Assembly: GCA_005880945.1 (NCBI GenBank)
Contig: VBIU01000066.1
Location: forward strand, 1 to 35,112
DNA length: 35,112 nt
Reading direction: 5' to 3'
Source: Chloroflexota bacterium
GTDB taxonomy: Bacteria; Chloroflexota; Dormibacteria; Dormibacterales; Dormibacteraceae
How positions within the stretch are numbered: position 1 is the first letter of the stretch; every line of letters starts with the position of its first letter. The translations under genes and the position numbers were made by a program. Below the pieces are notes generated by a model. It made no database searches. It was not told the DNA's origin and saw only the letters and a program-made list of their open reading frames with translations. Shown here in pieces: positions 19,468-21,397 of the stretch.

Positions 19468-19515
19468 TAGCGAACTCCATCATCGGGAATCATCGTCGCC
19501 GATCGCCGATTGTCT

Positions 19516-19521
19516 TAAAAT
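19516..19521 (+). promoter_or_regulatory. -10 box of the sulfurtransferase leader
   Basis: TAAAAT, one mismatch from consensus, is 9 nt before ATG 19531 of the leader ORF. This places the transcript start at or within a base or two of that ATG. No clear -35 is seen. Confidence 0.5.
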
Positions 19522-19530
19522 GTCGTGTCA

Positions 19531-19593
19531 ATGCGGGACCTCATCTGGCCTGCTCAGCGTCTGGTTCACAACCCGGCCTGCTTCTGTAGCTAG
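19531..19593 (+). CDS. Short leader peptide ending Cys-Phe-Cys-Ser
   Basis: A 20-codon ORF beginning MRDLIWPAQRL and ending HNPACFCS before TAG 19591-19593. Two of the last four residues are cysteine (codons TGC 19579-19581 and TGT 19585-19587). It follows a -10 box by 9 nt with no ribosome site, so it would be leaderless; GTG 19525 is an in-frame alternative start. It precedes a rhodanese/thioredoxin operon by about 100 nt. In mycobacteria, leaderless short ORFs with cysteine codon runs upstream of sulfur-metabolism genes act as cysteine-responsive attenuators. By analogy, scarce Cys-tRNA would stall the ribosome here. The Cys codons are not consecutive, so this is a hypothesis. Confidence 0.5.
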   Translation: MRDLIWPAQRLVHNPACFCS

Positions 19594-19627
19594 GCCGCCG
19601 GTCGTTTGCTCGCGCCCCTAGGGCGCG
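19571..19627 (+). promoter_or_regulatory. Candidate cysteine attenuator: two hairpins
   Basis: Hairpin 1 pairs CGGCCTGCT (19574-19582) with AGC plus AGGCCG (19588-19597, one bulged T) around loop TCTGT; ACC/GGT can extend it to 19571-19602. It covers the leader's Cys codons and stop. Hairpin 2, CGCGCCC (19611-19617) with GGGCGCG (19621-19627) and a CTA loop, is a perfect 7-bp stem without U-tail, terminator-like for high-GC bacteria. A ribosome stalled on the Cys codons would prevent hairpin 1. How that alters hairpin 2, or the ribosome site at 19683-19687, is not clear from pairing alone. Confidence 0.45.
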
Positions 19628-19695
19628 CCCATTCGATCGATCTCATCTCTCAATGGATATCAACACGTCATTTGCATTTTTTGGAGGTTTGGAAA

Positions 19696-20538
19696 TTGAG
19701 CTCATCGACGACAACCAAAGCTTTGGTCTCCACCGAGTGGGCGGCCGAGCACGGCAAGGACACGGGCCTTCGCGTGGTCGAGGTCGACGTCGACCCGACC
19801 GCCTATGAGAAGGGCCACATCGAGGGCGCGGTCGGCTGGAACTGGAAGAAGGACCTCCAGGACCAGGTGCTGCGGGACGTGGCCGGCAAAGAGGCTCTGG
19901 CCGAGCTCCTCGGCAAGAGCGGCATCACTCCCGAGACGACGATCCTTCTCTACGGAGACAACAACAACTGGTTCGCGGCGTACGCCTACTGGGCGCTGAA
20001 GTACTACGGGCACGACAAGGTCCAGCTGATCGACGGCGGGCGCGTGAAGTGGGAGAAGGAAGGCCGCGCGTGGAGCACGGACGTCCCCAGCCATCCCGCC
20101 ACCAGTTATCACTTCCACAGCTCTCCGAAAGAGGACATCAGGGCCTACCGCGACCACGTTCTTTCGAAGATCGGCAAGGCCGGACTGGTCGACGTACGGT
20201 CGCCCAAAGAGTTCTCGGGCGAGCTCCTGGCCCCCGAGAACCTTCCGCAGGAAGGCGCCCAGCGAGGCGGTCACATCCCGACGGCCGTCAGCATCCCCTG
20301 GGGCACTGCGGTCAACGCCGAGGACGGCACCTTCAAGAGCACCGAAGAGCTGAAGGAGATCTACGGTGGCAAGGGCATCACCCCCAACAAAGAGGTGATC
20401 GCCTACTGCCGAATCGGCGAGCGCTCGGCCCACACGTGGTTCGTGTTGAAGGAGCTGCTCGGCTACCCCGACGTTCGCAACTACGACGGCTCCTGGACCG
20501 AGTGGGGGAGCTCAATCAAGGCTCCCATCGAGAAATAG
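19696..20538 (+). CDS. Thiosulfate sulfurtransferase (tandem rhodanese)
   Basis: A 280-residue two-domain rhodanese that moves sulfane sulfur from thiosulfate or a similar donor to a thiol acceptor. The C-terminal domain holds the active loop CRIGERS at 238-244 (C238), the form usual in actinobacterial CysA/SseA proteins. The N-terminal domain has YGDNNNWFA where a cysteine loop would be, so it is inactive, as expected. The start is TTG 19696: GGAGG at 19683-19687 lies 8 nt upstream, and sequence further up in frame is non-coding. It is followed by DUF4395 and thioredoxin genes with 2-nt spacing and a GTGA overlap, a sulfur-handling operon probably controlled by the cysteine leader. Confidence 0.92.
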   Translation: MSSSTTTKALVSTEWAAEHGKDTGLRVVEVDVDPTAYEKGHIEGAVGWNWKKDLQDQVLRDVAGKEALAELLGKSGITPETTILLYGDNNNWFAAYAYWALKYYGHDKVQLIDGGRVKWEKEGRAWSTDVPSHPATSYHFHSSPKEDIRAYRDHVLSKIGKAGLVDVRSPKEFSGELLAPENLPQEGAQRGGHIPTAVSIPWGTAVNAEDGTFKSTEELKEIYGGKGITPNKEVIAYCRIGERSAHTWFVLKELLGYPDVRNYDGSWTEWGSSIKAPIEK

Positions 20539-20540
20539 GG

Positions 20541-20990
20541 ATGACAGCCTCCTTGTCCAGCGTCGTCGACCACTCGGCGCTCAAGGTCAACCAGACCGGG
20601 ATCATTGCGACTGTCCTCGTCGCATTCATCGGCAGCGCGTTCTACAGGCCGCTCCTGGTCCTGATTCCGCTGCTCGCTGTGGTCCTGCTCGTGGGCACTT
20701 TCGCACCGCAGCTAGCACTGTTCAAGCAGATCTACTTCAAAGTTCTCAAGCCGCGCGGCATCGTCAAGCCGCGAGTGGTCCCGGACCGGCCGGAACCTCA
20801 CAACTTCGCCCAGGGACTGGGCGGAGTGTTCCTCGCCATATCGTCGGTGTTCCTGCTGCCGCTTCCGGTGGTGGGATTGGCGCTCGCGCTGCTGGTGGCG
20901 GTGCTGGCGTTCATCAACGTGGCATTCGGCTACTGCGTCGGCTGCCAGATCTATTTCCAGCTCGGCCGCGCGGGATTGATCAAGGCGTGA
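20541..20990 (+). CDS. DUF4395 membrane protein with CxxC
   Basis: A 149-residue protein with about four membrane helices (IIATVLVAFIGSAF; LLVLIPLLAVVLLVGTFAP; GVFLAISSVFLLPLPVVGLA; ALLVAVLAFINVAFGYC). The conserved FGYCVGCQIYF near the C-terminus carries a membrane-edge CxxC. DUF4395 proteins repeatedly sit beside rhodanese and thioredoxin genes and are presumed to take part in thiol/sulfane transfer across the membrane. The ATG at 20541 is 2 nt after the sulfurtransferase stop, preceded by AGGG, and the frame upstream is a shadow. It overlaps the next gene by four bases. Confidence 0.85.
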   Translation: MTASLSSVVDHSALKVNQTGIIATVLVAFIGSAFYRPLLVLIPLLAVVLLVGTFAPQLALFKQIYFKVLKPRGIVKPRVVPDRPEPHNFAQGLGGVFLAISSVFLLPLPVVGLALALLVAVLAFINVAFGYCVGCQIYFQLGRAGLIKA

Positions 20991-21397
20991 CAACGCAACT
21001 CTGGGCGCTGGCGGTGGCGGGATTGGTAGTGCTCGCCGCCGCCTGCCTGGAGGCCGTCCGGTCGCGCCGGGCGCGATCGCGGTCCGTTGGAGCGGCTGCA
21101 GCCACGGCACCCGAGCCTTACATCCTCTATTTCACCGGGGAGAACTGCTCGGTGTGCCGGACGCACCAGGAGCCTGCCCTGGCCAAGCTCGACGGCGTTA
21201 GAGTCGACAAGGTCGACGCGATCGCGCAGCGCGAGCTGGCGGACCGTTTCCACGTTTACACGCTGCCGACGACCGTCGTCATGTCGTCGGAGGGGCGCTC
21301 TCTGCACGTGAACTACGGATACGCTCCGAGCACCAAGCTGGCGCGCCAGCTGTCCGACGCCCGCGGCGGCGAACTGAGGGCGATCGCAACCGCCTAG
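20987..21397 (+). CDS. Membrane-anchored thioredoxin-like protein
   Basis: A 136-residue protein: one N-terminal helix (LWALAVAGLVVLAAACLEAV), a basic linker, then a thioredoxin fold with active site C54-S-V-C57 (GENCSVCRTH) and the cis-proline loop TLPTTVV. The Arg-rich segment after the helix suggests the domain is cytoplasmic. It probably reduces or exchanges persulfides made by the rhodanese. Start GTG 20987 overlaps the DUF4395 stop (GTGA). It is the last gene of the operon; the next gene has its own promoter-like box. Confidence 0.87.
   Translation: MTTQLWALAVAGLVVLAAACLEAVRSRRARSRSVGAAAATAPEPYILYFTGENCSVCRTHQEPALAKLDGVRVDKVDAIAQRELADRFHVYTLPTTVVMSSEGRSLHVNYGYAPSTKLARQLSDARGGELRAIATA

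Follow-up and report, generated by a model that had tools for sequence, protein, structure and literature searches.

The window analysed here, a stretch of 35,112 nucleotides from a Chloroflexota bacterium, makes up one of the 259 contigs in an assembly of 3.3 Mb, and the features given below with coordinates all lie on its forward strand. It carries an operon whose first structural gene encodes a sulfurtransferase of the rhodanese type (19696-20538, TTG start; PF00581, 114.9 bits), followed by a DUF4395 membrane protein (20541-20990; PF14340, 92.1 bits) and a thioredoxin-like protein (20987-21397; PF13098/PF00085, just under the curated cut-offs). A periplasmic binding protein gene comes after the thioredoxin-like gene, and dapF (PF01678) is divergent from the operon. 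The rhodanese gene has a GGAGG Shine-Dalgarno sequence (SD, 19683-19687), and a GGAG-type SD is also found in relatives. Upstream, a -10 box TAAAAT (19516-19521) ends 9 nt before the ATG at 19531 of a 20-codon ORF (MRDLIWPAQRLVHNPACFCS-stop, 19531-19593), which terminates in Cys-Phe-Cys-Ser-TAG. The box, the spacing, the short ORF and the SD-led sulfurtransferase were thus all located where the initial annotation had placed them.

To judge how rare this arrangement is, we screened for TAnnnT followed, after a gap of 5-11 nt, by an ORF of 8-40 aa with at least two Cys among its last five codons. The pattern occurred once in the window, both strands included, and 19 times in 284 kb of relatives' DNA, where all 19 matches belonged to this leader family, indicating that a chance origin of the leader ORF is unlikely. 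A family-wide DNA search gave matches in 39 of 42 genomes, and the relatives carrying names are 'Chloroflexi bacterium' MAGs; the family comprises uncultured Chloroflexi from soil. All 28 full-length leaders of the core family have exactly 20 codons, and M1, D3, W6, P7, A8, Q9, R10, L11 and C17-F18-C19-S20 are invariant among them; conservation of the ORF and its terminal cysteines, proposed earlier as a check on the leader peptide, was borne out in this set. The codons for A, R and L differ in their third bases, and the median dN and dS are 0.09 and 0.39 (dN/dS ~0.23). Moreover, a TA[ACG][AG]AT box lies 8-10 nt 5' of the ATG in 27 of the 27 core relatives inspected.

A peptide profile search identified related, paralogous leaders elsewhere in the same genomes, before genes for SBP56 (PF05694; a short piece scores weakly to this family, full-length genes strongly). 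These leaders, like those of deeper genera, have a similar -10-like box at a similar distance from the start codon. Rhodaneses handle sulfane sulfur. The SBP56 family includes a Cu-dependent bacterial methanethiol oxidase (PMC5739008), and the products of Rhodobacteraceae methanethiol oxidases include sulfane sulfur (PMC10936201). The proposed coupling of the leader to sulfane-sulfur genes gains support from this second target: within one lineage, the same peptide core stands before two enzymes, of the methanethiol oxidase and rhodanese families, that may form one route. Several deeper genera have the rhodanese after the leader without DUF4395 and thioredoxin, indicating that the leader goes with the rhodanese gene.

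We then compared 51 leaders, 37 before rhodanese and 14 before SBP56. They share the core [WF]PA[QHM]R[LV]xxxPx[CV]FC (W-P-A-Q-R-L-x-x-x-P-x-C-F-C at 19546-19587 in the window), with rare substitutions and no indel over 14 residues in the 51 sequences, a set collected by a profile search that favours look-alike members, so that the indel-free core may partly reflect detection. The core P, R, F and last Cys are invariant in 51 of 51 and the remaining core positions nearly so, while the third bases of the invariant core codons mostly drift. When rhodanese leaders were paired with the SBP56 leader of their own genome (13 pairs, 11 positions before CFC), 29 of the 143 codons were identical, 49 synonymous and 65 non-synonymous. 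This combination of a fixed core and drifting codons fits selection on the nascent peptide, as in a candidate arrest peptide, better than a plain counter of Cys codons. Length varies on both sides of the core, in the N-terminal part preceding the Trp and in the tail, which has 0-4 residues after FC. One SBP56 leader (L151, genome G023) has its start two residues ahead of the conserved Pro and Met-Val immediately preceding the Trp (MVWPAQRLVFLPTCFCS), which suggests that the residues before the Trp are largely dispensable. The end of the ORF behaves differently at the nucleotide level: the bases TGC TTC TGT AGC are unvarying in the 28 core leaders, indicating a codon- or RNA-level constraint, and TGCTTCTGT is invariant in the 47 two-Cys leaders. 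In the other four (L149, L154, L156 and L157), Val replaces the first Cys to give VFC with a single Cys.

From these comparisons, it is strongly supported that the ORF is a conserved, apparently leaderless leader peptide regulating a sulfur operon, and we estimate a probability of about 0.9 that the region is a cis-regulatory leader peptide. It probably acts as a switch through which a translating ribosome responds to a sulfur signal. A class-wide profile search found the leader in the same family and in one genome of another family (G080), and the peptide profile run against 400 genomes of the phylum returned family members and chance-level matches, with no further convincing one. Related rhodanese loci outside the family (L033-L110) had no comparable uORF within 320 nt. 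The leader peptide had no match in NCBIfam 20, and Rfam 15 gave chance-level matches only. The leader probably forms a new class of leader peptide, within a kind of regulation already known.

At its 3' side, the ORF is followed by a rod-shaped hairpin, P2 (19599-19639), with an outer stem (19599-19604/19634-19639), a middle stem (19607-19608/19630-19631) and an inner stem (19611-19616/19622-19627), giving the layout 6 bp, 2x2 loop, 2 bp, 2x2 loop, 6 bp. In the alignment, 93.9% of the cells are paired and five pairs are changed on both sides; slid positions gave 21-45% pairing, and the covariation score exceeded that of every one of 500 shuffles. In 13 of 27 relatives, one pair of the outer stem (column pair 72-111) is mismatched, a weak point that counts against the model. 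Mean folding z-scores were -1.8 for rhodanese leaders and -1.4 for SBP56 leaders, and P2 is similarly placed across leaders, starting at or just after the stop codon. The 'perfect 7-bp hairpin' of the initial annotation (19611-19627) is the tip of this longer, covarying rod. A 9-bp stem over the Cys codons (19574-19597), reported at the same time, is present in the window; however, its outer pairs fail in most relatives and it has zero covariation, and we rejected it as a regulatory element. An alternative 1:2 pairing of CGGCC 44-48 with GGYCG 70-74 (alignment A3), 90% paired with no covariation, was also rejected. As for the suggested pairing of ACCTC in the ORF with GAGGT at the SD, about 8 of 27 relatives have the two halves (alignment A3, by reading), and the pairing is not general.

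In leaders L160-L162, from two genera, a G+C-rich hairpin with a 9-bp outer stem begins at the stop codon and is followed by a TTTTTTCTTT-type tract, so that the rod looks like an intrinsic terminator. We apply this putative terminator form to L160-L162; the rod in the window and in most relatives has no U-tract (U after the stem averages 33% in rhodanese leaders) and does not carry that claim. Scans of consensus promoters and of consensus terminators, the latter admitting loops of 3-8 nt only, gave no match. Two SBP56 leaders, L164 and L211 (from the window's own genome G000, and from G005), have lost the 5' arm of the rod along with the core of the uORF, with the promoter and SD region retained. 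These losses are natural deletions of the putative switch.

Among the mechanisms that could underlie such a switch, the better of the live options is that the nascent peptide itself is the sensor, in an arrest-type attenuator, for which we would give even odds. We infer the pausing, its signal and the direction of the response from sequence. Transcription would begin at or just before the ATG, and the ribosome would translate the 20 codons. With the nascent WPAQRLxxxPACFC in the exit tunnel, a signal related to sulfur, which may be cysteine or Cys-tRNA, or a reactive sulfur species, would decide whether the ribosome pauses, either at the stop or while the last Cys codon occupies its P site. 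The paused ribosome would cover the 5' arm of P2, the rod could not close and the rhodanese operon would be on; without a pause, the rod would form and expression would be attenuated. A ribosome covers ~15-16 nt counted from the first base of the P-site codon. Measured from the start of the last Cys codon, stable pairing in most leaders sets in at ~6-15 nt; with the first base of that codon counted as 1, the 5' arm of the rod begins at ~10-15 where it is clear. A ribosome that stands at the stop, or has Cys19 in its P site, would keep the outer stem from forming, whereas one starved at Cys19 would barely touch the rod and one starved at Cys17 would leave it intact. Given this placement of the rod, an end-of-ORF ribosome that keeps the genes on, as in tna, fits better than release by cysteine starvation. 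The joint loss of uORF core and rod arm in G000 and G005 speaks for this model; the missing U-tract in the window and most relatives, the invariance of TGCTTCTGT and a modelled SD exposure that stays unchanged wherever the simulated ribosome stands speak against it.

TnaC resembles the present leader in being short, in having residues conserved up to the pause site with a Trp upstream (here 13 before the final Cys), and in controlling transcription that continues into downstream genes. The TnaC-type feature of conserved nascent-chain residues at fixed spacing is found here in the 14-residue core of the 51 leaders, up to a predicted pause site. TnaC ends in Pro-stop, binds free Trp and acts on Rho-dependent termination, whereas here Phe-Cys and a variable tail come without a Pro before the stop, and some relatives have a putative intrinsic terminator. 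In TnaC, W12 lies 12 residues before the arrest-site P24 (PMC10941005). A tentative and rather doubtful extension is that WPAQRLxxxPxxFC represents a new arrest-peptide class, which would sense cysteine or reactive sulfur species in the tunnel, mask a terminator at its own stop and turn on two sulfur-handling operons. Arrest peptides that sense a metabolite and have a conserved sequence in the tunnel are rare, and to our knowledge none of them responds to cysteine or sulfane sulfur. The peptide is short, and its natural variants are many.

Second to the nascent-peptide sensor ranks a plain cysteine-starvation attenuator, which we consider unlikely. Here a stall at Cys17 or Cys19 on uncharged Cys-tRNA would refold the leader RNA and raise expression as in mycobacteria, and conservation of the peptide would be incidental. 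This explanation would account for the cysteine codons, both of which are invariant across the 37 rhodanese leaders, for the third Cys (CFCTC) of many SBP56 leaders, and for Cys19, which is TGT in 47 of 47 two-Cys leaders although TGC is about 5 times commoner in the longer ORFs of the window (66 against 13). It does not account for W, P, A, R, L and P being kept while their codons drift, or for the four single-Cys leaders; moreover, no covarying competing stem covers the Cys codons, and P2 would be fully exposed by a ribosome starved at Cys17. The initial annotation had Cys-tRNA charging as the sensor, and in this plain form the proposal fares poorly against the conserved Trp6-Cys19 peptide, the single-Cys leaders, the unconserved stem and the hairpin placement. 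Classical attenuators (his, trp, ilv) likewise combine a leader peptide carrying the relevant amino-acid codons with a hairpin; what counts in these is the regulatory codons and not the remaining peptide sequence, whereas the present family conserves its peptide and has a hairpin that starts at the stop codon or shortly beyond it.

The mycobacterial precedent also speaks for starvation sensing, since the related gene cysA2 is preceded there by a leaderless uORF that is conserved and ends in Cys codons (PMC4633059). According to the passages of PMC9031893 and PMC13236596 that report Canestrari 2020 (PMC8764745), polycysteine uORFs before cysA2/MSMEG_5788 and nirA/MSMEG_4527 are cysteine-responsive attenuators. 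The likeness lies in a short ORF, here apparently leaderless, with terminal Cys codons before a sulfurtransferase or other sulfur genes, a placement that the present family shows before both rhodanese and SBP56. However, the mycobacterial Cys codons are contiguous, whereas here they form Cys-Phe-Cys or are reduced to one, and the family has a conserved WPAQRL..P..FC peptide. Among plasmid-borne actinobacterial sulfurtransferases, a leaderless Cys-rich uORF was found only at a Tsukamurella locus, and its peptide is unrelated. At this locus (L185), the apparently leaderless uORF MRNRCELLLTRRLAVDLCRMAGCRCLG stands before sulfurtransferase-DUF1416, and its alignment score with the family leader is no better than that of shuffles (P ~0.5). 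In function the two are alike in broad terms, but membership in the mycobacterial class is unsupported, because the Cys codons are non-contiguous, some leaders have just one, and the single actinobacterial leader used for comparison has an unrelated sequence. The leader had been described as an independent or ancestral version with two Cys codons; it does look independent, judged by that one actinobacterial comparison.

More doubtful still is translational attenuation, in which P2 and downstream pairing would govern access to the SD rather than transcription, and which could be combined with either sensor model. By inspection, a CCUUUC(AU/AA) segment downstream of the rod in SBP56 leaders (L141, L145, L147 and others) can pair with the (AU/UU)GAAAGG of the SD site, which suggests SD sequestration in this second leader. 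However, rhodanese leaders have no conserved SD-pairing partner, SD exposure modelled by equilibrium folding was unchanged as a function of simulated ribosome position, and the rods of L160-L162 resemble transcription terminators.

It is very unlikely that chelation of a metal such as copper, or a thiol, by the CxC end of the nascent chain sets the pause, as in the copper-responsive leader proteins CutF and CruR. Those also control downstream genes through a Cys-containing nascent chain, but they are much longer, CutF is exported, and they have another motif and a proline-rich end. CFC is present in most leaders, SBP56 is Cu-dependent (PMC5739008) and Cu-sensing nascent proteins provide a precedent (PMC9973294); however, four leaders have VFC, the CxC lies 0-4 codons from the stop, inside the tunnel, and the CutF-like CxxxC motif, signal sequence and proline-rich end are absent. 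Least probable of all is a small protein acting in trans, which the peptide-level conservation would allow but which sits poorly with a length of only ~20 codons, with a uORF that in every case immediately precedes a rhodanese or SBP56 gene and has a hairpin at its stop, and with its loss together with the hairpin arm in the SBP56 leaders of G000 and G005.

Nearly all leaders have the -10-like box just 5' of their start codon, but transcription could begin further upstream, from an ECF-like element. This possible second promoter, GGAAT-N18-ATT (19486-19511), which we take to resemble the ECF SigR/SigH-type promoters of thiol stress, is kept as GGAAT-N18/19-[GA]TT in 26 of 27 core relatives, with a spacing of 18 in 25 of these and a variable spacer sequence; by inspection, it was not seen in SBP56 leaders. 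A whole-genome count gave 13 matches to the GGAAT-type pattern and 2 to a reversed control, which is not decisive for promoter use. If used, this ECF-like promoter would place the transcription start about 10 nt before the ATG.
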